A DNA stretch of 21,665 bases from a virus: positions 1-21,665 of IMG/VR virus record IMGVR_UViG_3300031785_000064, one strand, 5' to 3'. This document shows, in pieces, positions 1 through 20,534 of this stretch; the stretch's first letter is position 1, and each line of letters starts with the position of its first letter. Made by a program: the position numbers and the translations under genes. The notes beneath the pieces were generated by a model. The model made no database searches. It saw only the letters and a program-made list of their open reading frames with translations, and was not told the origin of the DNA.

Positions 1-3000
1 AACAAACTGATTTGCGCTGCCCGGAGTAATTCTAGCTTCATCAAAAGCTTTATACAGCGCCTTAAGTTTACCTTCTTTAATAGCTTGATTATAATCAGCC
101 TCTTGAATCCGTTGTATAGCAATCTCAAGACTTTCCCCTGGTTGCGCAAGTATGTAACGAGCAGTAAGTTCTGCTTCTTTTTCGTCCATAAATATATTGC
201 CGTTAAAATCTTTACGCGGCCGACCAGTTTCAGGGTCATTCATCAAGAAGTCTATAAATTCATCAATACGCTGTTCAATAGCAGATTCCGACAGCGCACG
301 GCCGCCTCCAAAGTTTTTACGTTCACGTATTTGTAGGTACTGGTTTCCGTCTGGATCTTTGTTGTACTCGAACGCTTCTTTATATAAAGCGCGTAACTCC
401 TTAGCTTCGCGGGTGCTAAGTTGTTCTGTTGGTATTGTTTCATCTTCAACTTCCAACATTATTTTTTCTATGCGTTCAGAAGTCCATGAGTTTTCACCGG
501 AGCCAGTATCTATACCAAGGATGTCTACCATCTTATTGGTAAAGTATGCTTCTTTTGCCGGTGCTTCTTGGAGCATCCCACGTAACCCGGCTTTGCCAGC
601 GTCAGCCTGGAAAAAAGCTGCAATAGCTTGGCCAGCGGGCCCCATAAATTGAAGGCGGGCGTTTGCGGTAGAAATAAACTTTTTATAAAAACCTGTTGTC
701 TTACTAGCGTACGCTTTGTTACCGGCGCGCGTAGCTTTTTTTATCCAGTCATTATCGATAGCGTTAATTAAATCGCGGGACTCTATACGTTGTGAAGCAC
801 TCAAATACTGCCCCGTAGTGTCCTTACGTTGTACATTGCGTTTTTTATTCGTTGCAACAACGTCATCCATATACGTCTTAAAGAAACGGTCTTGTTTAAA
901 ACGGCCACCAAGAGCACGATTAACGGCAGCAAAGAATCTTTTTAGACGCCCAGCTATTCGTTTAAATTTAGACTGTGTACCGTCAGTAGCTTTTATTGTG
1001 CTGTCATAAACATACTTACTAACTTGGTCAGAAAACCACTCTTCAAACCCGATACCTTCATCCATGTATTGGACGGGGGCGCCTTCGGCTGCGCGAGCTT
1101 TCTTAAACGAATCAAACATACGTTTACGTAGTTGGGGGTTAGCCTCGATTTTTGAAATTTCTTCAGAGAAAAAGACGTGGCCGATTTCATGCCCGATAGC
1201 CAATGCGGCGCCTACATCACTTTGTGCATACTTGCGGCCAAAAAGTTTTTCATTGACTACAACAATTGCTGACTGGCCTGCTAAAAATTCTACGCCTGCT
1301 GCGTTCTCTGGATTTTTTTGCATTTTTTCAACGCGTTTACTTAACGACTCGCGCGCCCAAGCAAACCTACCCCCAGGACCGGTATACGCATCAAAATTAT
1401 TTTGTAACTCCGTCAAAGTTATAAAGTTCATAGGTGTTGAAATACCAAGAATTTTTTCAGCCTGGGTAATTACTTGTTGCGCAGCTTTGTCAAAACTACC
1501 AAACCGTCTTGGTTCAGGCACTTGCTTACGTTTTTTCTTTAGAGGGTCTACAAGTTGTTTATGCCAGGCTGTTGCGGTAACTGACGGATCAGCAACTTGG
1601 CCCATGCGGGCCCCCTCTTCTACAACTAAACGTGTTCTAGGAGCCCCGCGATCTTCCACAGGGGTTTTACGTGTCTTTTGTTTTACTTGTACTTTGGGGC
1701 GACCTTTTGAGACTACGGGGTCAGAGACCTTAAGTCCTAGTTCAGACGCGGCTAAACTAAGCTTGCTATTAGCTAGAGTTCTCTTGCGTTGTTCTGCGCT
1801 ATTACGATTCCACCACTTGATACCGTTTAAAGCTTTTTTCATTGCATCAATAGATGACTGCGGCATACCAGTAACCGGTATTTCAACAACGATATCGGCT
1901 ACTGTAGATGGTGCTTCGTCTACATCGTCTTGCAGTATTTCAGTAAGAAACGTATTTAACCTATCACCAGATATATCTCGACTGCCAGCGCCGTTTAGCG
2001 TGCGAACGTTATTGTTAGCGATCCATTGCCTTACTTCTTTTGGATCAGTTTTCGGTGTTACAACGATATAAGGCTTGTTTAACTGTTTTGCAAACTTAAC
2101 GGTTGCCTTAGAACCCGGTGTTAAATTGCCTGGGTCTCGGACTACAATTACTGTTCCATCAGAATCTTTTACATTTTTACGTGTACGAACTGCATAATTT
2201 GCACTCTTAGATTCTTTTAATCCATATGCTTGCCCGAGAAGTTCCGGTTTGTTTCCACTTTCTGTTTTAAAACCTAGAGGCGCTGTTCCACCAGTTGAAA
2301 TACCTAAGTCAGAAGCAACGTCTAAAAAAGAAACGTCAACACCGTCCTGCCCACCTGATATTACTTTGACTAGCGGCTTCATTTCCGGTGCCGCTTCACC
2401 ACGCATACGAAGTTCAAAAAATGTAGTGTACGTAACGTCTTGAGTTTCGCCCTCAAACACGCCTGCTTGTTGAGCCCTGTTAAGCACCATGCCAGGCAAT
2501 TGCTCAGTTAGCCCAGGCACAGATTCATCCTCTACACCAAACCGATCGCGAGTAAGCTCTCTATCTTTTGCTTCTTCAAGCTGTAGTTGTCGCTCATTAT
2601 CAAGCTCATCCCTAAAACCTTCTTGCAGGGCTAAGCTTTTTAGTTCCGCGTACTCTTCTCTAATACGAAGCCCACCAACAGTTCCCTCAAGGTCCTCGCC
2701 TAAACGGTAGTATAGTTCGTCCCGAGACATGTTTGCTACCTCTACAAAATACCGTGCAGCAACATCACCAGCTATTTGATCATCTGTTTTAGCGTTTATA
2801 GCTTCAATGCTTTGTTCAGTACGAGTGTCTGCTATAGGAAATGGGTCTCGCATCCCAACAACTTCGCGTAAAGACATACCTTGATTACCATTGAAAAACA
2901 CAAAACGACTTAGTACATCTTCAGGTAATCTTCTAGTGCCTGCTAAAACTTCTGTTATATCGAGTGGCTGACGGCGGCCGTTGCTGTCTGTATAGAAGAA

Positions 3001-6000
3001 GCTATACCCCCGCATAACAGCTTCTTGCATACCGCGGACAAGCCCCGCTTTTGCTAACCTAGGATCACCTGTATAAAGAGGGTCGCCAACAAGAGCCCGA
3101 TCTTCGATAGCGTTCAATCGAATACCGCCGTTTATTAACGTCATAAACTGAAATTTTATAACCGGCTTACCGCCTTTTGAACCAATCTTACCGCCAGAAA
3201 TTTCAAAGGGAGACTCTTTTATAAATTTGTCAGTTTGATTAGAGCGTTCAATGCTGGCCATAGTGCTGTCAAAAACTTTTTCGCTTCTGTTAGCACCTTC
3301 TTTATCTACGCGATATCCTTCATCTACTATAGCTCGGTCTTTAGGCACAGCTCTGATTACTACTTTTACAGCACCAGGGTTGTTAGCAATAATATTGTCA
3401 GCGATGTTTTCATCGCCTGGTTGAAACTCTGCATTTATATTACCGTCGATTTTAAAATCTGGATAAAAATTATAAAGAGCTGACTCAGTGCTATCAAAGA
3501 TAAGGTCATTAAGAGCTTTCAACGCCTGATCGTTCATGTACTTAGAAAACTGTAAAAAGTTTTGTACAATCGCCGGGCCTTCTGGCGCATAGTGATTAGC
3601 TATACGTAACGTGTAATACGCTGCTGCGTTAACCGGTGTAACGATACGGTTAACTTTTTCTACCTCAGTAGTTCGTTGATTTGTGTCTGTGTCTTCGTTG
3701 GGTACAAATTCTGTTTCCGTAATAAACAACGGATTTTCTGGAGACGCTTGGATAACAGTTTTGCGTTTATCTGGATCTAATAAAACTGTGTATCCTTCGC
3801 CGTCTTTACCAAGTGGGACAATACCATTTTGTACTAACCGCACGGCGGGTGTTGCTTCAATCTCAGCTGCTAGTTCAGCACCTGTAACTTGATCTGCGGC
3901 TTCAGTAGGGTCAAGCTGACTTACATCATCCACAACACCGCTACGTTCTGAAGTAGCTATGTTACGTTCTGCACTATCTACAAAAGCTTGATCCGCTGTA
4001 TTAAGCTCTGGTTCGGCGGTTTGAGTAGCTGGAGCTCTTTGCACAGGAGTAGGATCAGCAGGGGCTGGACGTTGCGGCGCTAGCGGTGCGGGTGCGGGTG
4101 CAGCTTCGGCTTCGGGCGCTACACTTGGTGCGCTCGTCCCAAACAATCTAGGGTCACGCATCTCAGCCATAGCAATATCGTTCATACGATTTTCATAAGT
4201 GGCGGTAGATTCGCCCTCTAACTGTGCGTATTCAGTATGAGCTTTTTCATGCAGTTCTACAAAACGAACCCAGTCATCAGGCTCATTGATGTATTCATTT
4301 ACAAACTCGTCTGGTAAAGGATTGACTCCTTCAACTCTTGGGCTTTCCCAAGGTTTTTTGTCAAACTGTGATCGTAGATACTCTTCGTCAATAAATATTG
4401 TGTCGTCGCCTTTACGATAAAAAGCGCCGACAAACACGTCTGGTTTACCGGTGCTTTTTTTATAGGCGCCGCGTCGTACTTTTGCCGGTGCATCACGACG
4501 TGTTCTATTAAAATCGCGAACATCTGCCTGACCTTCAGTTGCTCGTTGTTCTTCTTGAGCCATAGCCGCAAGGTCTGCTTGAGTAACGGGTTGCGCGTCT
4601 GGTTCTGCAACAGGTGGTTGCTCTCTAACAGGCGGGGCAGTGGGCGTTGGCGTAGGTGCAGGAGTCTGAATATTCCGGTCGTTAAACAGCGGGTTGTTAG
4701 GATCAATCTGTCTGCCAGACGCTGTTCGGCGGCGTTCAGGATTATTCAGCGGCACTTGAGTTGTTGTAGGTGCAGGAGTAGGTGCAGGAGTAGGTGCAGG
4801 AGTAGGTGGCGATGGGCGCCCCATTACTTCATTGAGAAATGCAGCCTCATCTGCTAATAGGTCGGCGTTGCGCTCACGCGCTTGGGTTACTTCTACATCT
4901 TGCGCTACTGGGAACAACTCTCCTTGTACACCTTGCTCGGGTGCGTCTAAGTCTACAGTAGGTTGTTCGGGTTGCGCCGGAGCCGTACCAAGGTTGCGTG
5001 TATCAAACAGCTCTGCTTGGGTAGACTCATCAACAGCTTGCGAATCAGCTACTGATTGAGATGTCTGGTCAAGCATTTGACGAGCTTGCGCAACTACTTT
5101 ATCCGCAGTCTCTTTAGTGCTTCTGGCTACGGCGGGTATGCCACCCACAACGCCGCCCGCAGTACCAAACGCACCACCAGCTACAGCACCTAAGAACGCA
5201 GCCTCGCCTCTACGCAAGTTTGCTTCCTGAGCTGAGTAATTATCGTCAACACTTCTACGTTGTTGGATAAGTATTTCTTCTTGGGCTAGTTCTGCGGCGC
5301 CTTCTTTAGCAGAGTTTTTAGCTACCTCTTTACCTAAGTTAGCGGCAAATGCTGCAAAAACACCTTGGCCGTCTTTACGCGCTTTTTTTGTAGCTAGTTT
5401 TAGAAAGCTGCCAACCATAGCAACTTCTGTTGCTGTATCAATCAAAGCTATTGGAGCACCAATAGCTAAGGCTTGGCGTGCACGATCGGAGTCAAGCTCT
5501 ACGCCTGCTTCATCAAACTCCCCAAAAGACTGACCTGAGCCAGAGATGTAAGAAGGTATAAACGCGCCAGTTATTGAACCTGCTTTTGCAGCACTAGCTA
5601 CAGATTTAGCTGTACCGGCAGCTACCGCAAGTTCATCTGGGGTGAGAGTAATACCCTTTCTTTGTTTTTCTGCTATTTCTTTCAATAGTTGTTTAGCGGC
5701 TGCTTTGCCAGAGGTGTTCATCAACCCCCGCCCCAACACAGCTGTTAATCCACCTACACCAGCACTAGCAGCTGTTACTGTTGCCATAGGCGTAACCATA
5801 CCAACACCACTAGTAGTGAGGTCTAAAAGCCCAGAAAAGGTAGGGGCAGCAACGAAATCTTCAAAACTTATAGTACCTTCAAGTAGCTGACCACCTTGTT
5901 CTCTAGCAAGACGACCAAGTTCAAGGTTTTCTAAAGCTGCGTCTTCGTCACCAGACAGCGTATTAAAAATAGCCCCCATGTAGTCCATGTCGGCTTGTAG

Positions 6001-6234
6001 CGTACGCATACCTGATTGAGCACCACGTCGGAACGTCTCTGCAAAAGTATCTGCAGGGGCAACCTCATCAGATGTAAATCTTCCGGTATCAAGCAACGGG
6101 CTGTCTACAGCACGCCGCGACTCGGTAGTTATACCTTCCCTAGTACGTCTTTGGGTATCGAGTAGCGGTTCACGGCCAGCACTGTCGTCAATGAACCTAC
6201 TGTCGTCAATAAATTTAGTAATTTCATCAGCCAT
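1..6234 (-). CDS. Giant polyvalent virion protein, C-terminus outside window (at least 2078 aa)
   Basis: The frame starts at ATG 6234, 11 bases after the preceding gene, and stays open for exactly 2078 codons to the window edge, so the stop lies further left. By reading the translation: Gly/Ala-rich hydrophobic segments at about residues 135-175, 255-285 and 345-370; Pro/Thr/Ala linkers near 476-490; a metalloprotease-type motif HEKAH at 662-666; a YpsA/SLOG-like Rossmann domain at about 1289-1436 (SGGQDGVD, later DSDGTVIVV); a second zincin motif HEIGH at 1682-1686 with acidic residues EEWFSD about 50 residues on, a plausible third zinc ligand. Position after three smaller virion-type genes matches T7 gp16 or P22 ejection proteins; the hydrophobic N-terminal part could form a membrane channel. 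The domain mix fits the known class of phage polyvalent proteins delivered with the DNA. The ribosome site is weak (no clear AGGAG), so translational coupling is likely. Exact enzymatic roles are inference. Confidence 0.85.
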   Translation of the reverse strand, partial: MADEITKFIDDSRFIDDSAGREPLLDTQRRTREGITTESRRAVDSPLLDTGRFTSDEVAPADTFAETFRRGAQSGMRTLQADMDYMGAIFNTLSGDEDAALENLELGRLAREQGGQLLEGTISFEDFVAAPTFSGLLDLTTSGVGMVTPMATVTAASAGVGGLTAVLGRGLMNTSGKAAAKQLLKEIAEKQRKGITLTPDELAVAAGTAKSVASAAKAGSITGAFIPSYISGSGQSFGEFDEAGVELDSDRARQALAIGAPIALIDTATEVAMVGSFLKLATKKARKDGQGVFAAFAANLGKEVAKNSAKEGAAELAQEEILIQQRRSVDDNYSAQEANLRRGEAAFLGAVAGGAFGTAGGVVGGIPAVARSTKETADKVVAQARQMLDQTSQSVADSQAVDESTQAELFDTRNLGTAPAQPEQPTVDLDAPEQGVQGELFPVAQDVEVTQARERNADLLADEAAFLNEVMGRPSPPTPAPTPAPTPAPTTTQVPLNNPERRRTASGRQIDPNNPLFNDRNIQTPAPTPTPTAPPVREQPPVAEPDAQPVTQADLAAMAQEEQRATEGQADVRDFNRTRRDAPAKVRRGAYKKSTGKPDVFVGAFYRKGDDTIFIDEEYLRSQFDKKPWESPRVEGVNPLPDEFVNEYINEPDDWVRFVELHEKAHTEYAQLEGESTATYENRMNDIAMAEMRDPRLFGTSAPSVAPEAEAAPAPAPLAPQRPAPADPTPVQRAPATQTAEPELNTADQAFVDSAERNIATSERSGVVDDVSQLDPTEAADQVTGAELAAEIEATPAVRLVQNGIVPLGKDGEGYTVLLDPDKRKTVIQASPENPLFITETEFVPNEDTDTNQRTTEVEKVNRIVTPVNAAAYYTLRIANHYAPEGPAIVQNFLQFSKYMNDQALKALNDLIFDSTESALYNFYPDFKIDGNINAEFQPGDENIADNIIANNPGAVKVVIRAVPKDRAIVDEGYRVDKEGANRSEKVFDSTMASIERSNQTDKFIKESPFEISGGKIGSKGGKPVIKFQFMTLINGGIRLNAIEDRALVGDPLYTGDPRLAKAGLVRGMQEAVMRGYSFFYTDSNGRRQPLDITEVLAGTRRLPEDVLSRFVFFNGNQGMSLREVVGMRDPFPIADTRTEQSIEAINAKTDDQIAGDVAARYFVEVANMSRDELYYRLGEDLEGTVGGLRIREEYAELKSLALQEGFRDELDNERQLQLEEAKDRELTRDRFGVEDESVPGLTEQLPGMVLNRAQQAGVFEGETQDVTYTTFFELRMRGEAAPEMKPLVKVISGGQDGVDVSFLDVASDLGISTGGTAPLGFKTESGNKPELLGQAYGLKESKSANYAVRTRKNVKDSDGTVIVVRDPGNLTPGSKATVKFAKQLNKPYIVVTPKTDPKEVRQWIANNNVRTLNGAGSRDISGDRLNTFLTEILQDDVDEAPSTVADIVVEIPVTGMPQSSIDAMKKALNGIKWWNRNSAEQRKRTLANSKLSLAASELGLKVSDPVVSKGRPKVQVKQKTRKTPVEDRGAPRTRLVVEEGARMGQVADPSVTATAWHKQLVDPLKKKRKQVPEPRRFGSFDKAAQQVITQAEKILGISTPMNFITLTELQNNFDAYTGPGGRFAWARESLSKRVEKMQKNPENAAGVEFLAGQSAIVVVNEKLFGRKYAQSDVGAALAIGHEIGHVFFSEEISKIEANPQLRKRMFDSFKKARAAEGAPVQYMDEGIGFEEWFSDQVSKYVYDSTIKATDGTQSKFKRIAGRLKRFFAAVNRALGGRFKQDRFFKTYMDDVVATNKKRNVQRKDTTGQYLSASQRIESRDLINAIDNDWIKKATRAGNKAYASKTTGFYKKFISTANARLQFMGPAGQAIAAFFQADAGKAGLRGMLQEAPAKEAYFTNKMVDILGIDTGSGENSWTSERIEKIMLEVEDETIPTEQLSTREAKELRALYKEAFEYNKDPDGNQYLQIRERKNFGGGRALSESAIEQRIDEFIDFLMNDPETGRPRKDFNGNIFMDEKEAELTARYILAQPGESLEIAIQRIQEADYNQAIKEGKLKALYKAFDEARITPGSANQFV
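4766..4809 (-). repeat. 12-bp tandem repeat encoding a Pro-Ala-Pro-Thr linker
   Basis: Three perfect copies plus a partial fourth copy of the unit gtaggtgcagga (plus strand). Read on the minus strand inside the giant gene they encode repeating PTPA residues at about residues 476-490. Similar proline/alanine runs occur at about 4640-4665 and 4080-4105. They look like flexible linkers between the hydrophobic N-terminal part and the first metalloprotease-like domain. Confidence 0.85.
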
Positions 6235-6245: not shown

Positions 6246-8519
6246 CTACCGATACCTAGCTTGTTTTTCTAACCGTTCAAGAATTTGTGGGCCGGTCTGG
6301 GGCATTAGTTGGCGGAACTTACCTACAGTCATAGTTCCTTCATATACTTCAGCGGCTTTCGGGCCCTTCTCAGTTTCAGTATTTCTCACACCAACTCTCT
6401 TCCCGTCTGCACTCATAATAAACAACGATGACGGGTTTTGTACCCAATCGCCGCCAGGAGATTTGGTGCGCCAAACATCTCTAAACCATTCTTTAATACC
6501 GTCCGAACCGCCATAAGCCAATTGATATATAACCCTATTTGTTTCGGCTGCTGTAAGCGAGTCAGACACCAGTTTATTAAACCTAGTGCCCACTCTGCTC
6601 GCAGCAGGACTACTTTGGAACAAGGCGTTTAGTTCTCGTATATGACCCGTCAAACTAGCGGCAAGATTTTCACCTTTAGTAGTGTTGTCTGGGTCGGTAA
6701 ACGTATCAGGATTAGAAAGAAGTGTTGCTATCTTGCCTTGAAGTTCTTGGAATTTAGACTGTTCAGCCGCTGTTCCTTCATTTAGTTCAAAAGCATCCTG
6801 TCGGGCAGCACGGTTGTTACTTTGTGATGTGTTCACTTTACCTGCTGCATCTATACGCTGATTGGCTCTATCCATCGCAGTTTTAGCAGCATCACCATAC
6901 ATTATGAAGTTAAGAGTTTCTCGATATAACTCTTGGGGGGTTTGATTAGATTTTCGTTCCCCGTATTTAGCAAAAGCAGCAGCAACATACTTGGCTTCTT
7001 TAGTTGGTATGTCCAAACGCATTAGGTCTTCACGTGTTGTGACCCCGTAAGCACGCAAAATCTGCGCTGCGTTAGCAGCATCGTTTCGATCCATTTTATC
7101 AAACAATGCATTAGCTTCTTTTTCAAGGTCACCTCTAATATCCGTAAGGACACTTGTTACGTCGTTAACGACTGTTTGTTGCTCATCGCTTGCTTTAGAA
7201 GGAGTTTTTATTGACTCCAAGGATGCTCTAGCTTTGTTGAGCAGCTTTGATTGGTTTTCATTTGCGCTTGGATTATTACCTCTACCTGTCCGTCGTGACT
7301 CTAAAGTTTGTATTCTATCCTCTAAAAAATCCTCAGCACTCATAGCAAGTTCTTCTAATTCCGCGTTTACAGAATCAAGACGAGACTGAGCGGCAGTAGG
7401 ATCATAGCTTGGATCGTCTTTTCCCTTCTCTATTCTTGCTTCAATCGCTGCTTTGCTCGCACGTAAGTTTTTAATTCTGCCTCTTATAGCAGAAACGCCC
7501 AAAGCATTATCGCTCATAGCGTCTAAACGAGCGTCTATAGTTGACACAGAAGGCGCTTCTGTAAGTGCCTCCGCGTTTGGATCAGTAACCTCTTTACCCT
7601 CAGGTAATTCAGCAGTAGGTGTTTCACTTTCAGTCGAATCAATTTTTTGTTCGGGCTCACCGCTTATTATAACATTTTGAAGACGTTTTATTAGTTCGGG
7701 CGACGCACCCAACGAAATAGCCGCGGCTTCTAATTCTTCGGCTGTAGTTTCAGGATTAGATATAATGTTCAAAACAGCGTCGCGTTTTGCTGCATTTTCT
7801 TCAGGAGAGTTACCAGTTAGTGTTTCACCCATAACCTCTGAAAGTATTGCGCGGTTAATGTCTTCTGCGTTTAGGGGGGTTTCCATCCCTACCAACTTAT
7901 CTATTAATTGAACATTTGATTGAAAATTGTCAGAAGCATTTAAACCCCTACCAGTAGCGCGGGCTATTCCAATACCAGAATTAACTAAGTTCGTAAGTTT
8001 ATCTGCCGTAAAAGTTACAGCTGGGTCATCATCGTTAGGAGTCCCAAACACTGAAAAGATTTTTGACAGGGCGCCGGGTTTATCTTCTTTAACATTCGCA
8101 ACATAAACAGGCTGCCCGCCCGGTCCCAAACGGGGGCTGCCGTCTTCATTTGGCGGCGCCAAAGAGAACCCATCAAAATTATTTCGTGTCACAGAACCAT
8201 CTACAGCTATGCCGTCTATCAAGCCGTTAGCAGAGTGTACATTGACTAATGTGTTAATAGCGTTTCTGCCCACTGGGTTTTTGAAAAGATCGTTAACTTG
8301 GGCTGTAGAAAGTTTAAAATCAAACTGTCCTTGATCGTCAAAAAGACCTACGCCGCTTAAATCTGACAGCACAGATAACGCATCGCCTACTCGGTCAGCT
8401 TGCCGTTGCTCATTAGCTTCTTGATTAAGTATCTTTCGAGACTCTATTTGAGTCTGAAGATACTCATTACGGGGTGTCGCATACCTTGTGTTAAGATTTG
8501 ATAGACCAAGTAAACTCAT
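6246..8519 (-). CDS. Large internal virion protein, T7 gp15-like in size and position
   Basis: A 757-residue protein of unknown family. Its start overlaps the stop of the preceding gene in an ATGA arrangement, so the two are probably translationally coupled, and the giant gene follows 11 bases after its TAG. No signal peptide or membrane segment is visible. The middle part (about 340-430) is charged and helical, with alternating Ala, Glu, Arg and Lys consistent with coiled coil; the rest is rich in Asn, Asp, Ala and Thr, typical of phage structural proteins. The size is close to T7 gp15 (about 750 residues), and it stands in the same place: after a small virion protein of about 200 residues and before a very large one. 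I infer that it is part of the DNA-ejection apparatus; a tail-associated protein is the alternative. No catalytic motif was recognised. Confidence 0.8.
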   Translation of the reverse strand: MSLLGLSNLNTRYATPRNEYLQTQIESRKILNQEANEQRQADRVGDALSVLSDLSGVGLFDDQGQFDFKLSTAQVNDLFKNPVGRNAINTLVNVHSANGLIDGIAVDGSVTRNNFDGFSLAPPNEDGSPRLGPGGQPVYVANVKEDKPGALSKIFSVFGTPNDDDPAVTFTADKLTNLVNSGIGIARATGRGLNASDNFQSNVQLIDKLVGMETPLNAEDINRAILSEVMGETLTGNSPEENAAKRDAVLNIISNPETTAEELEAAAISLGASPELIKRLQNVIISGEPEQKIDSTESETPTAELPEGKEVTDPNAEALTEAPSVSTIDARLDAMSDNALGVSAIRGRIKNLRASKAAIEARIEKGKDDPSYDPTAAQSRLDSVNAELEELAMSAEDFLEDRIQTLESRRTGRGNNPSANENQSKLLNKARASLESIKTPSKASDEQQTVVNDVTSVLTDIRGDLEKEANALFDKMDRNDAANAAQILRAYGVTTREDLMRLDIPTKEAKYVAAAFAKYGERKSNQTPQELYRETLNFIMYGDAAKTAMDRANQRIDAAGKVNTSQSNNRAARQDAFELNEGTAAEQSKFQELQGKIATLLSNPDTFTDPDNTTKGENLAASLTGHIRELNALFQSSPAASRVGTRFNKLVSDSLTAAETNRVIYQLAYGGSDGIKEWFRDVWRTKSPGGDWVQNPSSLFIMSADGKRVGVRNTETEKGPKAAEVYEGTMTVGKFRQLMPQTGPQILERLEKQARYR

Positions 8520-9052
8520 AATATACTCCAGATACTACTTTTGTAGTTAGCTTTAGCATTTGAATAAGCTTGATCGCGCGCTGCCTGCAGTTGCGCAGCA
8601 GTACCAAGCATGTTTGTAGCATCTCCGTATACTTTATTTCCTATGTTAGCAAGGTTAGACAACAAAGACATGTTCAGTTGTCTTTGCGCTATTCTTGCGT
8701 TGTTTACGTTACCTACCTCAGCTAAATTAGAACCTCTAGCAATAGCCTTATCCCGTTCTCTACGCTCTGCAGGAGTTAAGTCGGCACCGTAACGACTAGC
8801 TGCGCGGTCCATAACACCCGCAGTTAGTGTGCGATTTTGCCTAGCATCCTCTCTAGCCCTGTCAATCAAAGACGTATCGCTCATAGCACGGTCTATTAAC
8901 TGTCGTTCTAGGGGGGCAAAGTTATCTTGAAAATATTGATACTGTTGCTCTAACAGATCAGCATATGCTTTGTCAGGATCTGATACCGTCGGCAACGCAG
9001 ATGTGCCGTAACCTGAGTTCATAGCAGCAAGTGGTAGATTGTAAACTGACAT
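8516..9052 (-). CDS. Small internal virion-like protein A (178 aa)
   Basis: A 178-residue, helix-rich protein without membrane segments. The early part carries a motif of the type YFQDNFAPLERQLIDRA (about residues 39-55) that recalls sequences near the start of small internal or core proteins of podoviruses; the rest is rich in Ala, Arg, Asn and Gln. It overlaps the next gene by four bases (ATGA) and starts 13 bases after the 209-residue gene. The aromatic/Pro/Leu pattern resembles WTTNYGGILPEISRQL in that neighbour, so the two may be distant paralogues. Role in the ejected core or at the tail hub is inferred from position only. Confidence 0.75.
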   Translation of the reverse strand: MSVYNLPLAAMNSGYGTSALPTVSDPDKAYADLLEQQYQYFQDNFAPLERQLIDRAMSDTSLIDRAREDARQNRTLTAGVMDRAASRYGADLTPAERRERDKAIARGSNLAEVGNVNNARIAQRQLNMSLLSNLANIGNKVYGDATNMLGTAAQLQAARDQAYSNAKANYKSSIWSIL

Positions 9053-9065: not shown

Positions 9066-9695
9066 CTATAAGAACGAGAACGCTGACTCACCTAGAGTAG
9101 CATCTCTTTTGCCGTCGGGCGCGGAATCATCCAACATCTTAGGTTGGAAGAACGAGCCTCCAGTTTCTATATTAGACTGGCCGCTCGAAACTACCGACTT
9201 CGCAATTTGTAAAATATTGTTTGCTCTAGCTATATCCCCACGTTGCTCGTCTGCTAGTCTTTTAAGGGCAGTGCCTTGCTCAATCTTAGCTAGCTGACTA
9301 AAGCCCCTGTTGCTTATAGATTTTTGTTGCTGTCCCATAGCAAGAACGTCCGCTTGCGCTTTATTTTGAAAATCAGAAGCTTGTGTGTCGGCTTGACTCA
9401 AACTTTGAAGTCGAGCCTGCTCAACATCACTTGTAAAACCTAAATCTTTTGTCCTAGCAAGACTAATCGGGCCAACAGTTTGCATAACATCCGCACCAGC
9501 TCTAGACCTAAGATTACTGCGCACATTTTCCTGTTGCAGTTGACGAGATATTTCTGGCAAAATTCCACCATAGTTAGTAGTCCAACGCTGCCACTCTGCA
9601 GAGGCAACCGCGGCCTGAGTTTTTTCAGCTTCAGTAGGTTTGTAATCCGACGCCTTTGGTTTTTTAATGCCCAAAATTTTTCCTAACAGCCCCAT
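9066..9695 (-). CDS. Small internal virion-like protein B (209 aa), T7 gp14-like position
   Basis: A 209-residue protein starting with MGLLGKILGIKKPK, a short basic N-terminus seen in many phage internal virion proteins, followed by a long Gln/Ala/Ser-rich helical stretch. The ribosome site AGGAGA lies about seven bases before the ATG and overlaps the stop codon of the preceding connector gene. Size and position before a 757-residue and a giant protein match T7 gp14 (about 196 residues), the smallest ejected protein. No enzyme motif is seen. Identity as an ejection protein is inference; a tail-stem component is possible. Confidence 0.75.
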   Translation of the reverse strand: MGLLGKILGIKKPKASDYKPTEAEKTQAAVASAEWQRWTTNYGGILPEISRQLQQENVRSNLRSRAGADVMQTVGPISLARTKDLGFTSDVEQARLQSLSQADTQASDFQNKAQADVLAMGQQQKSISNRGFSQLAKIEQGTALKRLADEQRGDIARANNILQIAKSVVSSGQSNIETGGSFFQPKMLDDSAPDGKRDATLGESAFSFL

Positions 9696-9704
9696 ATCAG
9701 TCTC

Positions 9705-10388
9705 CTAAATAAAAGATTTTCTGCCAGCATATTTACGTGTCTTACGCCCGCTGTGCAATCCACCATAACGTACTTTAGCAACCACTGGATTATCGGCCTG
9801 ACGAGCGCGCCGCTCCGCGTACACCATGCCGTTATTAAATAGCTCACTGTAAATTTGCGCCGCCCCTAGATCAGTCCAGTCTTTCGCGGGCATACGGCAC
9901 AACCGAAAGATAGCGCCGTTAATAATTGCATCTCTATAATCAGTCATTATTTCATCATCACAAGCAGTAGAAGTTTGAGTAGGTTTAAGTGCTACTCTAA
10001 TTTCTACGCCCTGTGAAACAGTGGCGCTGGGGACTGGTACAAGATTAACAATGCTCAAACCTTGTTTAATAAAGTACTCTGGAGTACCCGTGTCATTACG
10101 CCAGTTTTCTTTACGTTGCTCAAGCAAGCCACTTGAAACAGGTTCAAGAGTTTTACCTTCGTGTGTCATCCACACAATTCGATGTACAACCGTTCCGGTA
10201 GGTGGCTCTAAGTCGTATTCGTAGATACCAGCCACCACAGTAATTGGGTCCAGTTGTTGTTGATAAACGTCTGTCTTTTCACACAGCTCGATCGCAGCAG
10301 ACCGTATCGCTCTTTCAGCTATAACTTCAGGGCAAGCCGGAACCATTGAAATGACATCAGGTAACAATGTTTCATATTTTATGGCCAT
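9705..10388 (-). CDS. Neck/connector-type structural protein (227 aa)
   Basis: A 227-residue protein with an N-terminal helical part and a central beta-rich part (YEYDLEPPTGTVVHRIVWM and following), then a helical segment and a very basic C-terminus (SGRKTRKYAGRKSF). This layout is common in adaptor or nozzle-type proteins that bind below the portal. Its ATG shares one base with the stop of the upstream gene (TAATG) and an upstream GGAG serves as ribosome site, so both are probably made together. Comparable gene pairs follow the capsid gene in podovirus-like phages. I cannot assign it to a named family with certainty. Confidence 0.75.
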   Translation of the reverse strand: MAIKYETLLPDVISMVPACPEVIAERAIRSAAIELCEKTDVYQQQLDPITVVAGIYEYDLEPPTGTVVHRIVWMTHEGKTLEPVSSGLLEQRKENWRNDTGTPEYFIKQGLSIVNLVPVPSATVSQGVEIRVALKPTQTSTACDDEIMTDYRDAIINGAIFRLCRMPAKDWTDLGAAQIYSELFNNGMVYAERRARQADNPVVAKVRYGGLHSGRKTRKYAGRKSFI

Positions 10389-11068
10389 TAACCGACTCCT
10401 CGTCTTTCCACGTTAGGCGTATCTATAGAATCTCGTTGGTCTTTAGCGCCGATTAAACTTAAAAATATTCTGTAGTGGTTTGCTGCTCTTTGAGCATTTG
10501 CAGCAACCTCTGATTCTTTTAGATAGGACATATACAAGACATAATGCATTACAGCACCCGCGTACATATCATCTACGGTTAGGTTGTCGCTTGCAGTAAC
10601 GGTAGCTGGGTTTTTAGAATATATAATTTCTATATAAGAGTTACCGGCTACGCCTGGGAAGACATAGTAATTTTTAGGGTCTTGCTCGTCATAGATGTAG
10701 TTTTTAATTACATTTGTATGAGCAGCATCGCCCGTTACAGCTGGGTCATGCCAAGTAGGGGTCTGTGTGTCTAAGACATCGCGCGCGACTAGTCGAATTG
10801 CACGACCGCCTGTGCCACTAGATGCTGCTGACATATTACGTATGACGCGAAGCAGCCGGTTACCATCAGTAGGTATCGTTTGCTTTGTGCCGGTTACAAG
10901 AGTAACTGTAGTATTTTCAGATGTAGCGTCAGGCTTAAGAAGGGCTATCTCGCTTTGCGCGTCATTAAGCCACTTAATTAGCTCATCAGTCTCTGACCAA
11001 CGGATACCAGACGTATCCTGGAGCGTTTCTTTTACTCTAGCTAGTACGCTTTGTACCGTTGTAGTCAT
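10388..11068 (-). CDS. Head-tail adaptor-like protein (DUF6682-like)
   Basis: A 226-residue protein. The first 50 residues (VKETLQDTSGIRWSETDELI, then a WLNDAQSEIALLKPDA pattern) are typical of phage adaptor proteins that begin with helices and an invariant tryptophan, and resemble the family I remember as DUF6682. A beta-rich middle (LVTGTKQTIPTDGNRLLRV) and a C-terminal helical region with LYMSYLKESEVAANAQRAANHYRIF-like heptads follow. It probably joins the portal to the tail. An AGAGGTAG ribosome site precedes the ATG, ten bases after the previous stop; the stop overlaps the next start by one base. The family name is from memory. Confidence 0.78.
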   Translation of the reverse strand: MTTTVQSVLARVKETLQDTSGIRWSETDELIKWLNDAQSEIALLKPDATSENTTVTLVTGTKQTIPTDGNRLLRVIRNMSAASSGTGGRAIRLVARDVLDTQTPTWHDPAVTGDAAHTNVIKNYIYDEQDPKNYYVFPGVAGNSYIEIIYSKNPATVTASDNLTVDDMYAGAVMHYVLYMSYLKESEVAANAQRAANHYRIFLSLIGAKDQRDSIDTPNVERRGVG

Positions 11069-11505: not shown

Positions 11506-12660
11506 TTACTGAGCGGTATCGAGTGCGATAACACCAAAGTCCTGGACAGAGCCAGAAACATCAGAGTTATACTTCGGCTTACGAAGACCAAAAATCTTAC
11601 CGACAGAAATACCGGCTTGGTTTTCGTAATCGAAGGTGTCCTCGACAATCTCAGGCAGACCAATATCGGCCATAGCCAAGGCTTGTGCGCCACAGAACAG
11701 AGCACGTGCCCCGTTTACGTCAGCGTTCGCGCCCCATTTGTAACCAGCAGCACCTGCGTTAGACGAGGTACCGGCGGTTGCACCAGCTGTGTTGAAGACA
11801 TGACGGAACTCATGAACCATAATGCCATCTACCATCAGGCTGGATGAACCAGCAAACAAGCTGTTTGCATTACCGCGAACACCAGCGTTTCTGACGTTAG
11901 CCAGGAAGTCGGAGTCGAGTTTCAAATCAGCCATTTGCTGTGGGGTTACGAAGAGATGGAACATCTCGTCGTTACCTGCACCGCGGATACCACGAATGTA
12001 GTTATCTTTGGCGTAGGCTTTCAACTCAACAAGACACTTGTAAGTGATCGTGTCAGCAGCAGTGACCTGAGTCGTTGCAACACTGGATGTCACCAAGTTA
12101 CTTGTTGCGTCCCAACGCACGTGACGTGCGCTTGTAGGAGCAGACACATCCGAAGCAAACTCAAGGTCAACCAGCTCATGGCCAGCTGAAGAAGAGGTTG
12201 GGCGGAGTGCGCCGTTGTTTTTGAAAGTGTAAGCAACACCAGAAAGCGTCAGGAACGCCAGCTGGTCCATACGGTCAGCCATTGCATATGCAAGTGCGTC
12301 ACGTGATTGCTCACGGAAGTTCACAACCGTTTTCTGGTCGGCCATGCGTCCGGCGATGCGGTTAGCAAAGCGCAGCTGGTCCAGCTCGATTGTGATGTCG
12401 AAGGCACGCAGTGCTTCTTCATTACCTTCCAGAGTGTTGTCGCCGGTAATACCGTCGCCAGTCATATCTGCAAGCAATGTAATGTTAGCTTTTGTACCTT
12501 TGTTGCTTTTGGTCAGCTCGGTTACGCGCTGCACCATTGCGTTCTGACCAGTTCCGGCGAACTGATTAATGAACGACATGTTGCGGGCCACACGCCAGAA
12601 GTCGCGTGACCACACCTGAAGCTGATCACCTGTCAGCGTTCCGTAGTTAGTAGTAGCCAT
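11506..12660 (-). CDS. Major capsid protein, N4-gp56 family
   Basis: This 384-residue protein forms the icosahedral head shell. The N-terminal half carries the hallmark stretch of the N4-gp56 / DUF4043 capsid family: KGTKANITLLADMTGDG, then TLEGNEEALRAFDITI, DQLRFANRIAGRMADQKTV and NFREQSRDALAYAMADRMDQ, followed by AFLTLSGV. The C-terminal part holds the beta-rich region and a GFGVIALDTAQ-like end. I chose ATG 12660 (MATTNYGTL) because GGAGC lies at ideal spacing before it; a TTG 12 bases upstream would include the ribosome site in the coding part. It follows an acidic scaffold gene and a long structured leader, and precedes a strong hairpin. Its codons favour C in third position more than those of the neighbouring virion genes, as expected for the most abundant protein. 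Confidence 0.95.
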   Translation of the reverse strand: MATTNYGTLTGDQLQVWSRDFWRVARNMSFINQFAGTGQNAMVQRVTELTKSNKGTKANITLLADMTGDGITGDNTLEGNEEALRAFDITIELDQLRFANRIAGRMADQKTVVNFREQSRDALAYAMADRMDQLAFLTLSGVAYTFKNNGALRPTSSSAGHELVDLEFASDVSAPTSARHVRWDATSNLVTSSVATTQVTAADTITYKCLVELKAYAKDNYIRGIRGAGNDEMFHLFVTPQQMADLKLDSDFLANVRNAGVRGNANSLFAGSSSLMVDGIMVHEFRHVFNTAGATAGTSSNAGAAGYKWGANADVNGARALFCGAQALAMADIGLPEIVEDTFDYENQAGISVGKIFGLRKPKYNSDVSGSVQDFGVIALDTAQ

Positions 12661-12892
12661 TTTAAGCTCCAATTAAAGATGTGTTTCACTAACGGTTGAG
12701 ACCACCTCAACCATCGACCGTCTTTTTAATGGATAGACATACCCGTATACCTCGTATCGTGAGGAAACGTGTGGCGTATAGTTATCGAGTTACGAACTCG
12801 GCGCGTTTTACGCCCCGACGGGCGAGAACGATTTTTACCGTGACCGACCACGACCTGATATCGCACAGGTAAGCGAGTTAGTTTTATATTAG
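12661..12892 (-). promoter_or_regulatory. Structured untranslated leader upstream of the capsid gene
   Basis: About 230 bases without a convincing gene. Reading the minus strand, several hairpins can be drawn: 12811-12824 (5-bp GC stem), 12786-12800 (6-bp CGAGTT/AACTCG around a 3-base loop) and 12694-12712 (7-bp GGTTGAG/CTCAACC around 5 bases), the last about 35 bases before the capsid start. A weaker 4-bp pair lies at 12839-12852. The GGAG ribosome site at about 12666-12669 is left unpaired. It may hold a late promoter, but no convincing -35/-10 pair was found. Confidence 0.6.
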
Positions 12893-12905: not shown

Positions 12906-12979
12906 TCGCCGCAAGTAATAAGTAAAGCAATCAGCACTGAGGCTAACGCCATACCTACTACTTGTGACGGGAAATTCAT
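12893..12979 (-). CDS. Possible 28-aa membrane microprotein
   Basis: ATG 12979 overlaps the TGA of the scaffold gene (TGATG), with GGAG nine to ten bases upstream inside that gene. The peptide has 28 residues: a short polar start (MNFPSQVVG) and then one hydrophobic stretch (MALASVLIALLIT) long enough to enter a membrane. The stop lies in the palindrome 12885-12905. Overlapping start, ribosome site and hydrophobic content are in favour; very short length and no known relative are against. A small membrane or lysis-related protein is only a guess. Confidence 0.45.
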   Translation of the reverse strand: MNFPSQVVGMALASVLIALLITCGDILV

Positions 12980-14043
12980 CAGACGATATCTCCTCGCATG
13001 CGCCTAATAGTTGCTTCGGGCAGCGCGTTAAACTCGTCTTCGCTCATTTGCTCTAAGTTAATGACGTTTTCGCCACGTGACGAAGAGCCTTCACCTTCTA
13101 ATTCTGGCGGTTGGGCTTCCGCAGCTTTAAGTTTTTTAGCTACTGTAGCCTTTTTCTTGGCCGCCTGCTCTACTTGTGGCTTTGCTAGGGCTGATTCTGA
13201 TTCAGTTTCCCCTGCAGCCTCGAGGTTACGGTCCTTAACCACGTACTTAACCGCTCGGCCCAAAGCGTCAACGGGGTCATAGCCTTTAAGAATAAACGCG
13301 TCACGAAGTTCGACAACTTCATCTGTGTATTCTTGGCTAAACTCTGAAGAGTTTTGGTCAAATACTGGATAAGCTTCTTCCAGGTCTGCTGCAGCTTTCT
13401 GTAAAGCTGTAGCTTGAGCAGATTGTTGAACCGTTTGGCCCATTTTCTGCTCCATTTCCCAAGATATTTGAGTTTTTTCCGCAGCTCGAATTTCTTTACG
13501 GAGAGCGACAGCTTTTTCAGCTTCTCCGTCAAGAACGAGCTGTTGATATTCAATTTCTTTAGCATCGAAGTCATACTCCTCTGGCGCTTCAGCAGGTTGT
13601 TCGGCAGCAGCCTTCATTTCTTCTACCTGTTTCTGTAAAGCTTTCTGTTTAGCTAACACTTCATCAAGGCGAGACTTAGGCACCATAGGGCTTTTTGTCT
13701 CCGGTTCTGTTTTTTCAGCGGCAAGAGGCATTTCTTCCTCTTTATCATCGTCTGATTCGGGTTCCTCTTCAGGTTGCCCTTCATCAGGCTCAGTATCATC
13801 GCCGTCATCGTCTTCATTATCGGCTGTTTGGACTTCTTCGTCCGTAGTTTCCTCTGATTCTTCAGCTTCAGCGGTAATTTCTTCCGTTTCTTCAGCTTCT
13901 TCAGCTTTTTCTGGCTCCGGTTCGGGCTCTGGAAAGCTTAAATCTAGATTTTCTGGCGCCTCTAAGGGTTCTGCCCCCGGCATAACGTCAAAAGTAAGCG
14001 CTTTTTCCTCAGTCGCTTCCTGATTTTCCGTGTCTTTACTCAT
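12979..14043 (-). CDS. Capsid assembly scaffold protein (354 aa)
   Basis: A 354-residue protein between portal and capsid genes, the usual place of the scaffold that guides head assembly and then leaves. The first 125 residues are extremely acidic, with long Glu/Asp runs and Pro; residues about 125-225 are charged and helical with coiled-coil heptads (SRLDEVLAKQKALQKQVEEM); a Lys/Ala-rich hinge follows at about 285-320. The C-terminus, NVINLEQMSEDEFNALPEAT followed by a basic RRMRGD end, is typical of scaffold proteins of phages with P22-type portals. Ribosome site AGGAG precedes the ATG, nine bases after the portal stop. No protease gene is seen nearby, so removal may not need cleavage. Confidence 0.85.
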   Translation of the reverse strand: MSKDTENQEATEEKALTFDVMPGAEPLEAPENLDLSFPEPEPEPEKAEEAEETEEITAEAEESEETTDEEVQTADNEDDDGDDTEPDEGQPEEEPESDDDKEEEMPLAAEKTEPETKSPMVPKSRLDEVLAKQKALQKQVEEMKAAAEQPAEAPEEYDFDAKEIEYQQLVLDGEAEKAVALRKEIRAAEKTQISWEMEQKMGQTVQQSAQATALQKAAADLEEAYPVFDQNSSEFSQEYTDEVVELRDAFILKGYDPVDALGRAVKYVVKDRNLEAAGETESESALAKPQVEQAAKKKATVAKKLKAAEAQPPELEGEGSSSRGENVINLEQMSEDEFNALPEATIRRMRGDIV

Positions 14044-14052: not shown

Positions 14053-16164
14053 CTAGTTTTGCGTGGTTTGGCCCGTTTTTGCGCCAGTGTTCATAGCAGT
14101 GGTGGCCAATTTTGCCGCTGCTTGAGTTCTAGCCTGTGATTCACGGGTTTCTTTAGTCATACCCGCAAGTTCACGACGCAAAGATAAGTTTTCTCTTGCT
14201 ATTTGAAGCTCTTGTTGCAGTTCAGCTACTTTAAGCTGTGGATCTGCCTGAGCTGCGCCAGCTTTTGCCTGAGTTAACTGAGCGTCTGCAGCTATTTTCA
14301 TAACCTCGGCCTCAAGTTTAGCGACTTGTAGCTGCGCTTCCTGCATAGCGAGCTGTTGCTGCATCTGCATAATCTGCATTTGCTGTTCAGACGGGTCTTG
14401 GCGGAGACGCGCTGCAAGCTCTGATTTCTTAGCGAGGTGTGAATACTGAACAATAGCATCGTCCGGTACAGCAACACCGGCTTGACGGAGTGCTAGAGCC
14501 TCCGCGAACTGTACTTCATCAAATGAATCACGCGCTGGCATAGTACTAATGACAACATCATACTCACCCAGAGTTAGATTATTAATAATGTCACCATCAT
14601 CGGTCAGCTGATTAATAATCATTTCTTCCCGTTGTTCCATCGGGTCATCATCTTTAGTAATTTTGATGACTCTTTCCTCAGTGTAAAAGGTTTGGATAAG
14701 GTCCAAAATCTTTTCGGCAAGGTACTGGCGGGTTTTGCGCAAGTTATCCAACGGCACCTGAATCATAATGACGCCGCGGTTCTGTTTTGCTTGTATCGCA
14801 ATACCAGAAACCTCAGCACCGTCGGTGCCAAGCATAGAGTCATTAATACCACTGATAGACTTTATATTAGCCTGCGCCTTTTGACTGATACGGTCGAGAC
14901 CGGTTGGGATCTGATTTGGTTGTATCTTCGCGGGCGGAGAAGACCCACGATTATACTCAAGAACCAAACCGGTCTCTGCCCCGTGTTCCTCCAAATCCTC
15001 AGCCTGCATATTAGTAAGAGAGCCTGACTCCACTACCCAACCACTGTTAGCTGTAGTGTTAACAATGTGTAACTCTTGTGAAGCGATCTTGTTCAGCTGC
15101 TCTTGAGGAGAAAGCAGATTGCGCACCATACCGAACGGGCGCCCGCGCCTGAAATAAGCAAAGAACGGGACAATAGTGAAGTCTTTATATGGAGACCAGT
15201 CGTCATGCAATACAACTTTATCGCACGTAACAGTCCAGCGTACTTTCTTTTTAGTCTTGCTATACATGTTGAGACCGTAGTCTTTCGCAAACTTTTTAGC
15301 TTTGCGGTCAGACCACGCCTCCGGCACTTCACGTTGGTCACCAGTAGTTGGGTCTACATAACATTCGACACGAGTGACTTTACGATGCTGGCGCTCAATA
15401 ACACGTAGGGCTTTGACAGTTCGATACTCATCTTCACCAGGGACAGTGGTACCGAGATAATCATCAGATTCATCCAAGTCCCCGTAGCGTGTCTCACTGT
15501 ATTCCACCGAGTCACGGCCGAAACTATTACCGTTCTCGGCAATAAACCGAAGGCGGTCCGCTTGTTCTTGTCCGTACATTTCCTCGATGTCATCGAGCGT
15601 CATCCAGCGGGTGTAGAAGAACTCGTTCCAAGTTTTTGGATCATAGTCTTTGGCGTCAGGGTCAATAACAACATCCAACGGATCGAGCGCTTTAACACGT
15701 ACTTCGCCTTCTACATGATCAGAAAAATCTATGCGCGCGTCAAAATAGCCGCGGCCGTCCATAATCAAACCATCAGAAAAAACTTGCTGCTCAACCCAAT
15801 CAAGTTTGTTGTTATCTGCAATTTGCATATACAACTTCGTAAGCGTATGCGCAACTTCTTCCGACCCGCCACGGCGAGGTTTGAACTTTATATCTGCACG
15901 TCGATTAGACTGCTCGCCTAGTACAGTATTAACTGTAGGTAATATTGTATTTATGGTTAGGGCCGGGCGACCTTCTGCATCAAGATTAGCGACATCCATA
16001 GCATCCCATTGTTCACCCTGATAATAAGCATCGCATTTTTTGGCTACATCAATGTAATCAATATGGCCGTTGTCGCGGGCTCGTGTATATCGGTCCCACT
16101 GGTCGTGCGCTAGTTTATCTTCTTCACCTGGGGTTAGTCGGGCTTTTTTACTATGTACTGTCAT
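14053..16164 (-). CDS. Portal protein, P22-like family
   Basis: About 703 residues, close to the P22 portal (725). Twelve copies form the ring at one head vertex through which DNA enters and leaves. The N-terminal part shows the family pattern: a helical stretch with CDAYYQGEQWD, then RPALTINTILPTVNTVLGEQ and NRRADIKFKPR. The C-terminal 130 residues form a long Gln/Ala-rich helix (QMQIMQMQQQLAMQEAQLQV), comparable to the helical barrel that extends into the P22 head. I prefer ATG 16164 (MTVHSKK), which begins one base after the terminase stop; a GTG at 16173 would add three residues and overlap that stop. No strong ribosome site is visible, so coupling to terminase translation is likely. The scaffold gene follows after nine bases. 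Confidence 0.93.
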   Translation of the reverse strand: MTVHSKKARLTPGEEDKLAHDQWDRYTRARDNGHIDYIDVAKKCDAYYQGEQWDAMDVANLDAEGRPALTINTILPTVNTVLGEQSNRRADIKFKPRRGGSEEVAHTLTKLYMQIADNNKLDWVEQQVFSDGLIMDGRGYFDARIDFSDHVEGEVRVKALDPLDVVIDPDAKDYDPKTWNEFFYTRWMTLDDIEEMYGQEQADRLRFIAENGNSFGRDSVEYSETRYGDLDESDDYLGTTVPGEDEYRTVKALRVIERQHRKVTRVECYVDPTTGDQREVPEAWSDRKAKKFAKDYGLNMYSKTKKKVRWTVTCDKVVLHDDWSPYKDFTIVPFFAYFRRGRPFGMVRNLLSPQEQLNKIASQELHIVNTTANSGWVVESGSLTNMQAEDLEEHGAETGLVLEYNRGSSPPAKIQPNQIPTGLDRISQKAQANIKSISGINDSMLGTDGAEVSGIAIQAKQNRGVIMIQVPLDNLRKTRQYLAEKILDLIQTFYTEERVIKITKDDDPMEQREEMIINQLTDDGDIINNLTLGEYDVVISTMPARDSFDEVQFAEALALRQAGVAVPDDAIVQYSHLAKKSELAARLRQDPSEQQMQIMQMQQQLAMQEAQLQVAKLEAEVMKIAADAQLTQAKAGAAQADPQLKVAELQQELQIARENLSLRRELAGMTKETRESQARTQAAAKLATTAMNTGAKTGQTTQN

Positions 16165-16165
16165 A

Positions 16166-17710
16166 TCACGCACTCATCGCTGACTTAATTTTAACTTCTT
16201 TACCAAGATAGCGGAGCTTGTCTCTCCAACTTGGCGGTTCAACAATACGTTCGTGGAATGTAGAAAACTCCGTCATCATTAATCCAATCCATGCCAACGC
16301 ATCAACTTGGTCATCATGAACACCATTGGGGAAACGTAAAAGTTCTGCCACCAACGGGCCAGTAAATACTTCGTTACGCGGCAAGAACACCATCCCCTGC
16401 TGCATACGACCTTGAATGGCTCGTGCTCGAGCTTCTTTATCGCGGCGACCTACTTTCAAATCTTTGAAGTAAGCCTCATTAAGACCACGCTCCCTAGTAC
16501 GTTTTTCTAGAAACGGACCAAGCGCCATCTCAATATGGCCTTTTTCGATTCCGATAATCGAAGGCCTCCATAATTCATAACAGTCTAAAATACGTTCGAC
16601 AAGCTCAAAACCATCGAACCGTCCACGGATGACATCGACAACAAATAGATTATCGTACTCGTCAATACCAACCACCATACCAACTGAGTAGTCATTTCTA
16701 TCTCGCTTTCCTATAGCTAAGTCCCACGCACAGTAATAACGTAGTCGATCTTGGTCGATGTCCTCTCTGTCGTAGTACTGGATCATGTCTCTTGTAAAGT
16801 AATCACCATCATCTGCAACTGGATTTTGCTGATACAACGCTGACCAATCTCTAGGGCCCACGGCTCGTTGTATACGCTCCAGTGCATTAAGGTCATATCG
16901 TTCTGGGTGAAGTGCTTCTCCGGCTTCGCGGAACTCTTCATCTTCTTCTGCTATAGCGGGGTACTTTACTACTTCCCATTCGTCGCCACCTTCAGACATA
17001 TTTTTAAGAAGGCGCCCGACTAAATCGTCATCATGCCAGCGGGTCATAATTACAAGTATACCGCCGCCAGGCGCAAGACGTGTATATGCGGTGGAGGTGT
17101 ACCAGTCCCATGTGCTTTCCCGGTTATTTTGTGACTCTGCGTCCTCGCGGTTTTTAACAGGGTCATCAATCACTAATACATGCGCACCTTTACCAGTAAT
17201 ACCACCACCAACACCAGCGGCAACATAGCCACCACCGGCAGACGTTAGCCAGGCTTCAGCTGACTGCGAGTCAGGATCCAGGCGTGTTTTGAATGTAGTC
17301 TTGAACGACGGTTCACGAAGAGTTTGCCGTACTTTACGGCTGAAGGTCATAGCCAACGCTCCAGAGTACGAACAGCTTATGAACTCGTGTTGTGGGTTAC
17401 GTCCTAAATGCCAGGCTGGAAAGCCGACACTAGCAATAGTTGATTTACCTAGCCGCGGTGGCATTTGTAATATGAGTCTTGGGCTTTTTTTATTTACAAC
17501 ATCTTCAGAAAATTTTTCTAGTCTTTTACATATATCTTTGTGTACCCAGCCAGCCATGTAGTCAGGGTTGTTTCGTTCGATAAATGGTAACAGTCGACGG
17601 CGGGTAAGGAACCGTGCTGCGAGTTCTTGCTTCGCTAGTTCTTCGGCCGTGGCCCGTTGTTCGACTTCTTGGGGTGTTGGCTGATCAGGATCAGGCATAG
17701 CGTCCTGCAT
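16166..17710 (-). CDS. terL: Terminase large subunit (packaging ATPase/nuclease)
   Basis: This enzyme pumps DNA into the procapsid through the portal and cuts the concatemer. Counting from ATG 17710 (514 residues): Walker A PPRLGKST at 84-91; Walker B VLVIDDP at 178-184; coupling motif MTRWHDDDL at 222-230; RNase H-like nuclease with Asp330 in CAWDLA, Glu389 in GIEKG, and HDDQVDAL at 465-472. All key residues are present. The gene follows the small subunit and overlaps or abuts the portal gene, the standard packaging order. There is no ribosome site before ATG 17710, and the same frame stays open upstream and encodes a zinc-ribbon-like segment (see 17711-17812), so the true start is probably upstream. 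Confidence 0.96.
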   Translation of the reverse strand: MQDAMPDPDQPTPQEVEQRATAEELAKQELAARFLTRRRLLPFIERNNPDYMAGWVHKDICKRLEKFSEDVVNKKSPRLILQMPPRLGKSTIASVGFPAWHLGRNPQHEFISCSYSGALAMTFSRKVRQTLREPSFKTTFKTRLDPDSQSAEAWLTSAGGGYVAAGVGGGITGKGAHVLVIDDPVKNREDAESQNNRESTWDWYTSTAYTRLAPGGGILVIMTRWHDDDLVGRLLKNMSEGGDEWEVVKYPAIAEEDEEFREAGEALHPERYDLNALERIQRAVGPRDWSALYQQNPVADDGDYFTRDMIQYYDREDIDQDRLRYYCAWDLAIGKRDRNDYSVGMVVGIDEYDNLFVVDVIRGRFDGFELVERILDCYELWRPSIIGIEKGHIEMALGPFLEKRTRERGLNEAYFKDLKVGRRDKEARARAIQGRMQQGMVFLPRNEVFTGPLVAELLRFPNGVHDDQVDALAWIGLMMTEFSTFHERIVEPPSWRDKLRYLGKEVKIKSAMSA

Positions 17711-18552: not shown

Positions 18553-18559
18553 GCTTAAT

Positions 18560-18576: not shown

Positions 18577-18577
18577 C

Positions 18578-19825: not shown

Positions 19826-19827
19826 TC

Positions 19828-20004: not shown

Positions 20005-20013
20005 CATCAATCA

Positions 20014-20046: not shown

Positions 20047-20055
20047 CTCGAAAGT

Positions 20056-20088: not shown

Positions 20089-20103
20089 AGGGGACGTGAC
20101 AGC

Positions 20104-20515: not shown

Positions 20516-20534
20516 CGATAATGGACCGTGGTTC

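Follow-up and report, generated by a model that had tools for sequence, protein, structure and literature searches.

The window analysed here is a complete IMG/VR viral record (IMGVR_UViG_3300031785_000064) that is 21,665 bases long and open at its ends, so that the gene of a giant protein is truncated at its left edge. On the minus strand this gene runs from an ATG at position 6234 down to position 1, yielding 2078 codons without a stop up to the record edge. The original prediction had described this frame and taken its product for an ejected polyvalent protein with a channel-like N-terminus and several enzyme domains. The frame itself was borne out, as no open frame in 200 base shuffles exceeded the maximum of 248 codons, and a chance reading was rejected. 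We find that the giant belongs to a family of phage proteins whose shared backbone includes a zinc peptidase, and that within this family a SLOG domain is found in the window's phage alone. The order of genes on the minus strand is terminase, portal, acidic protein, capsid, a gene of 118 amino acids (aa), two adaptors, genes of 209, 178 and 757 aa, and the giant. The three genes before the giant have the sizes originally claimed, and together with it they are packed nearly gap-free. The giant thus closes an ejection-type cassette, in agreement with the gp16-like position after gp14- and gp15-like genes that had been proposed for it.

Searches with the portal protein identified 79 viral-contig loci in IMG/VR, with Pseudomonas phage KPP25 (40%) as the nearest named group. 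Relatives of the giant's conserved N-terminal part (N-core) and/or its peptidase core were present in 18 of 34 portal-sharing records, and many of the others stop before the gene. A scan of viral contigs with the peptidase region returned 259 relatives, of which 80 were kept, and with the portal set this gave 73 distinct giants, a family whose genes close the head and ejection block in KPP25-like podoviruses. Complete giants (n=60) are 1777-3219 aa long with a median of ~2070, and by our own reading of the collection most family contigs are marine. A direct search of viral contigs found no close relatives of the whole giant, and a distant DNA search with its middle part found no relative. Complete copies share the same order: N-core, a variable part that contains a central domain, the zinc-peptidase core, and a C-terminal module (C-module); the exceptions are two distant copies from named phages, KPP25 and phiA008. 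The window's copy contains the first three parts and is cut before the C-module. Accessory domains in the variable slots differ from relative to relative, and 23 relatives have N-terminal extensions, at least 8 of which match peptidoglycan hydrolases (SLT, phage lysozyme, GH19).

Several individual members illustrate the range of the family. A domain that follows the N-core in L112:4139-11860 (residues 604-715) precedes it in L119:1345-9014 (residues 379-490) and is a module that has moved across the N-core. The bacterial genome of Motiliproteus coralliicola (L215) encodes a giant of 1904 aa among similarly ordered genes, an indication that some family members infect gammaproteobacteria. Pseudomonas phage BroderSalsa has a structural protein of 1039 aa (L224:4087-7206) that carries the C-module (8.4e-34) and a portion of the core with no HExxH, and is a small family member lacking the peptidase motif.

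The peptidase belongs to the backbone that the family shares. Two HExxH motifs had been claimed and both are present, at residues 662 (HEKAH) and 1682 (HEIGH); because the giant has only six His, 0.0014 such motifs are expected from its composition. The second lies in the peptidase core, which matches the family profile at 1.3e-112, a profile that contains the window's own sequence. Its form, HExGH, is invariant in the first 12 relatives, as are the residues aligned with Glu1732 and Asp1736, and the zinc-ligand pattern is present in 72 of the 73 giants (71 counted plus L141, whose HEIGH lies just beyond the tested stretch). An HExxH (or HExxxH) with a downstream Glu, the zincin pattern of polyvalent-protein peptidases, is found in nearly all of these giants, the window's included. 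Curated peptidase models gave weak M78, M48 and M13 matches only, in relatives, and a fold search of the peptidase part against solved structures gave no match. In three relatives (L198:5738-12784, L173:6806-12505 and L199:2-3982) HEAxGH replaces HExxH at the peptidase site, and this HExxxH form is documented for polyvalent-protein peptidases (PMC5512222). The 3114-aa giant of L146:3407-12748 matches the peptidase profile twice, with an HExxH in each.

The first HExxH lies in an accessory domain that the window shares with just one relative, L197 (HEQAH; E=2.8e-10, 34%); a direct search of viral contigs and phage records for close relatives of this part found none. The domain precedes the central domain in the window's giant and follows it in L197, and because of this different placement we regard it as a movable module. 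The central domain was detected with a profile made from relatives, the window's sequence being excluded. Structure prediction gave folded domains for SLOG, whose model superposes on a solved structure, and for the peptidase core, which is modelled confidently; the model of the HEKAH domain is of low confidence. Pro linkers had been proposed, and two Pro-rich stretches are present, both predicted to be disordered.

The SLOG domain, also claimed from the letters alone, is well defined. It matches PF12694 with 111 bits (E=5.5e-32) against a curated cut-off of 26.2, and its model superposes on 3imk with E=6.2e-8 and a template-modelling (TM) score of 0.76 by target length. The ligand-type motifs SGGQxGxD and RTxKNVxDSDGT are intact in an alignment with L210, L211, L212 and 3imk. 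The domain is placed between the central domain and the peptidase, and the slot that holds it is the longest of all giants (435 residues, median 118). We found SLOG in 0 of 50 related records using a search that does detect the SLOG of L210. This locus (L210:2443-11838) encodes a 3132-aa phage giant, preceded by genes of 463 and 295 aa, with a cpYpsA SLOG at residues 513-653; SLOG is its sole similarity to the window's giant, the backbones being unrelated. L210 is thus a second, independent SLOG-bearing phage giant.

The SLOG domain is predicted to bind or cleave NAD-derived nucleotides, and for viral SLOG domains such an action is likewise a prediction in the literature (PMC9503650). The same 2022 survey describes viral SLOG proteins as typically standalone and proposes that the domains counter signals of the cyclic ADP-ribose type (PMC9503650). 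The main text of the 2017 paper on polyvalent proteins does not contain the word SLOG (PMC5512222), our literature search not being exhaustive. SLOG domains in two unrelated phage giants would place an NAD-signal domain in the particle. A PADLOC search gave no match. We also looked for NADAR domains in relatives and observed two matches within giants at 23.7 and 14.9 bits, below the curated cut-off of 35.1; a third match is located in a separate 136-codon frame. One of the two matches within giants was discarded, as its coordinates put it inside the peptidase core. In L166 a sub-threshold NADAR-like match has coordinates in the same slot as the window's SLOG.

At the N-terminus, the N-core is predicted with high confidence, the AlphaFold2 predicted local distance difference test (pLDDT) being mostly 90-97 at residues 64-150, 223-270 and 311-350. 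A fold search with the N-terminal model found no match in PDB at E<=0.001. Four matches at this threshold in BFVD had low TM scores and were treated as a hint only, including one named 'Large polyvalent protein associated domain'. Of the channel-like N-terminus originally proposed, the long helices are thus confidently predicted; the hydrophobic character is not distinctive, with three hydrophobic 19-residue stretches compared to 2.7 in shuffles. The N-core may nevertheless form a channel.

Features of the giant and of the other genes in the window, all on the minus strand.
Feature	Residues of giant	Positions	Evidence or remark
Giant gene, 2078 codons, 3′ end missing at record edge		1..6234	relatives among 73 distinct giants
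N-core, conserved Gly/Ala-rich bundle of long helices	57-407	5014..6066	alignments and AlphaFold2
Pro-rich linker 1	~466-560 (Pro-rich ~466-555)	4555..4839	pLDDT below 50
Accessory domain with first HExxH		4135..4449	HEKAH, residue 662; bases 4237-4251
Pro-rich linker 2	706-735	4030..4119	composition, predicted disorder
Central family domain	949-1135	2830..3390	profile match 1.8e-8
cpYpsA SLOG domain	1291-1435	1930..2364	PF12694; SGGQxGxD and KNVxDSDGT kept
Zincin metallopeptidase core	1577-1790	865..1506	pLDDT mostly 85-96
HEIGH of peptidase core		1177-1191	
Downstream Glu of peptidase core	1732	1039-1041	
Helical stretch past peptidase	1791-2028	151..864	family-conserved
757-aa gene		6246..8519	gp15-like tunnel protein position; sequence nearly unique
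178-aa gene, ejection cassette		8516..9052	weak phrog_596 match
209-aa gene, ejection cassette		9066..9695	first gene past identity break
Two SU10-adaptor-like genes		9705..11068	PF24175 1.6e-13 and 2e-34
Major capsid protein gene		11506..12672	PF13252 7e-47, phrog_334 4.2e-88
Acidic protein gene		12979..14043	between portal and capsid genes
Portal protein gene		14053..16173	phrog_156 6.8e-124; 40% to KPP25
Terminase large subunit gene		16166..17710	phrog_38 1.2e-117

The C-module connects the family to virions. All 40 relatives tested match phrog_30152 and phrog_6958 ('virion structural protein') in this module, and 4 of the 40 match the C-terminal part of phrog_342, the T7 gp16 family. Two relatives align with the C-terminal part of T7 gp16, at 1.7e-8 and 3.7e-8, and gp16 itself spans phrog_342. 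A link of the family to T7 gp16 through the C-module is likely but not proven. Among named phages, ORF088 of KPP25 (Kochitakasuvirus, 2009 aa), annotated as a structural protein, has the C-module (3.6e-92), and so does gene0066 of Aeromonas phage phiA008 (2050 aa; 2.7e-111), each with the peptidase core in whole or in part. In both copies the N-core is weakly detectable, and tblastn with the window's protein found no SLOG. KPP25 differs from the window in having an HESMH that the aligned part does not include, and a different order of genes from capsid to giant. The structural annotation in KPP25 and the C-module matches in all 40 relatives lend homology support to the earlier claim of a virion protein.

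The arrangement resembles two well-known ejection systems. Like the giant, T7 gp16 is last in its ejection cassette after genes of ~200 and 750 aa, its C-terminal part is similar to that of relatives, and its hallmark, an N-terminal hydrolase, is found in relatives; however, the transglycosylase is absent from the window's copy and the zincin core has no match to T7 gp16. The N4 virion RNA polymerase is likewise a giant last ejection protein, after genes of 150 and 644 aa, and is reported to carry a zincin domain (PMC5512222). It differs in that the backbone blocks have no significant match to it and the giant has no polymerase domain in Pfam or PHROGs, and a virion RNA polymerase reading was rejected. 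Profiles of the family blocks gave no reliable match to the N4 polymerase or to T7 gp14, gp15 and gp16.

The giant also resembles the polyvalent proteins of phages and plasmids (Iyer et al. 2017, PMC5512222), which combine unrelated enzyme-type domains around a zincin hub and are encoded beside virion genes. Here too several unrelated enzymatic-type domains occur in one chain encoded with virion genes: a zincin metallopeptidase and a SLOG domain in the window's giant, and in relatives peptidoglycan hydrolases. The DarB-like giants of Bcep22-like and Lastavirus podoviruses are similar in having the giant gene in the virion module, their portals are distantly related, and the copy of phage JC1 is present in virions; however, the backbone profiles have no significant match to the tested 2074-aa part of the SopranoGao giant.

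The genes preceding the giant vary together with it. Compared to the three nearest giant-bearing relatives, the terminase is 98% identical, the capsid 92-95% and the adaptors 77-88%, versus 31-32% for the 209-aa gene, 40-43% for the 178-aa gene and 26-37% for the giant, with the 757-aa gene absent or nearly so. Amino-acid identity to the nearest relatives falls at a single gene boundary (9066-9705), from 83-90% in the adaptor to 31-34% in the 209-aa gene, and stays low through the giant; another pairing has a milder drop at the same boundary. The ejection cassette thus varies as a block. Because its last four genes fall off together at one boundary, they can be read as a single unit, as would be expected of genes whose products work together. 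This suggests that phages exchange or diversify their ejection proteins jointly, a point relevant to the evolution of phage entry.

Taken together, the window's giant is probably a polyvalent carrier of the gp16-like type whose payload is SLOG, and the original prediction was probably right on its class. Homology lends good support to the description 'ejected, gp16-like, polyvalent', and the earlier interpretation as a whole is partly supported. Several results weigh against it. Comparing profiles directly with a small alignment of gp16 gave only P=0.005, and the window's gene is cut before its C-terminal end, where the gp16-like module is assumed to lie. Pfam and PHROGs gave no N-terminal peptidoglycan hydrolase or transglycosylase match in the window's copy, and membrane spans in the giant are not clear by hydropathy, with no excess over chance. 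The 'structural' label of KPP25 is taken from the record annotation, and virion presence of the window's giant would follow by homology.

The explanation we favor, and consider fairly probable, is that the giant serves a KPP25-like marine podovirus as its final and largest ejection protein, with a peptidase that cleaves the giant itself and a SLOG domain that blunts immunity. What the sequence shows is the family backbone and the two domains added in the window's copy, HEKAH and SLOG. The giant would act in the manner of T7 gp16 or of the N4 virion RNA polymerase: packed in the head, it would exit through the tail after the smaller ejection proteins and arrive at the inner membrane or in the cytoplasm together with the DNA or before it. 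The N-core and C-module may dock to the tunnel and inner membrane, and the conserved peptidase would most likely cut the giant itself, freeing payload domains after entry. SLOG, freed or tethered, could then bind or break NAD-derived signals such as cyclic ADP-ribose, blunting early immunity. Ejection of the giant, and a role of SLOG or the peptidases in disarming host defences, both parts of the original prediction, are plausible on this model. We propose more tentatively that some podoviruses load an anti-alarm SLOG in a channel-building protein so that an NAD-signal sensor or enzyme is in the cell when the DNA arrives, from exchangeable slots of a self-cleaving carrier that in L166 perhaps hold a NADAR-like domain. 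Such a model would join two topics usually studied separately, the ejection machinery of short-tailed phages and counter-defence by polyvalent proteins, and because the carrier (N-core, central domain, zinc peptidase, C-module) is fixed while its slots vary, payloads would be readable from sequence.

Alternatively, the giant could be purely structural, with SLOG and peptidase as scaffolding folds or active in head assembly only and with no anti-defence role. The peptidase belongs to the conserved backbone, as a housekeeping role would predict, the SLOG is rare among related records, and Iyer et al. propose autoproteolysis before packaging for P1 DdrB (PMC5512222). However, a dead spacer would not need to keep SLOG ligand-type motifs, SLOG also occurs in a second, unrelated giant, and relatives carry differing accessory domains in their variable slots, so we regard this alternative as rather unlikely. 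Far less probable is a late-made host-takeover protein encoded beside the head genes and acting outside the particle. Although 2000-3000 aa is large for head cargo, the KPP25 homologue is annotated as structural, the PHROG category is head and packaging, and peptidoglycan hydrolases are fused in relatives; furthermore, virions of podovirus JC1 yielded 51 peptides of a 4515-aa giant encoded in a similar place, whose homology to the family is not shown (PMC9144972). An assembly artefact joining a foreign SLOG-bearing piece into an ordinary giant has a negligible chance and was rejected: the same middle part occurs in no close relative, but the frame is single and unbroken, base composition is steady across the SLOG region, and the family's central domain and peptidase flank the SLOG.

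The remaining observations concern the other genes of the window. The acidic protein had no family match in a PHROG search and, from its place and composition, is probably the scaffold. The listed start of the capsid gene is a TTG; an ATG (MATTNYG) lies four codons further on and is the more likely start. To the right of the terminase (17805-21665), small genes are encoded on both strands.

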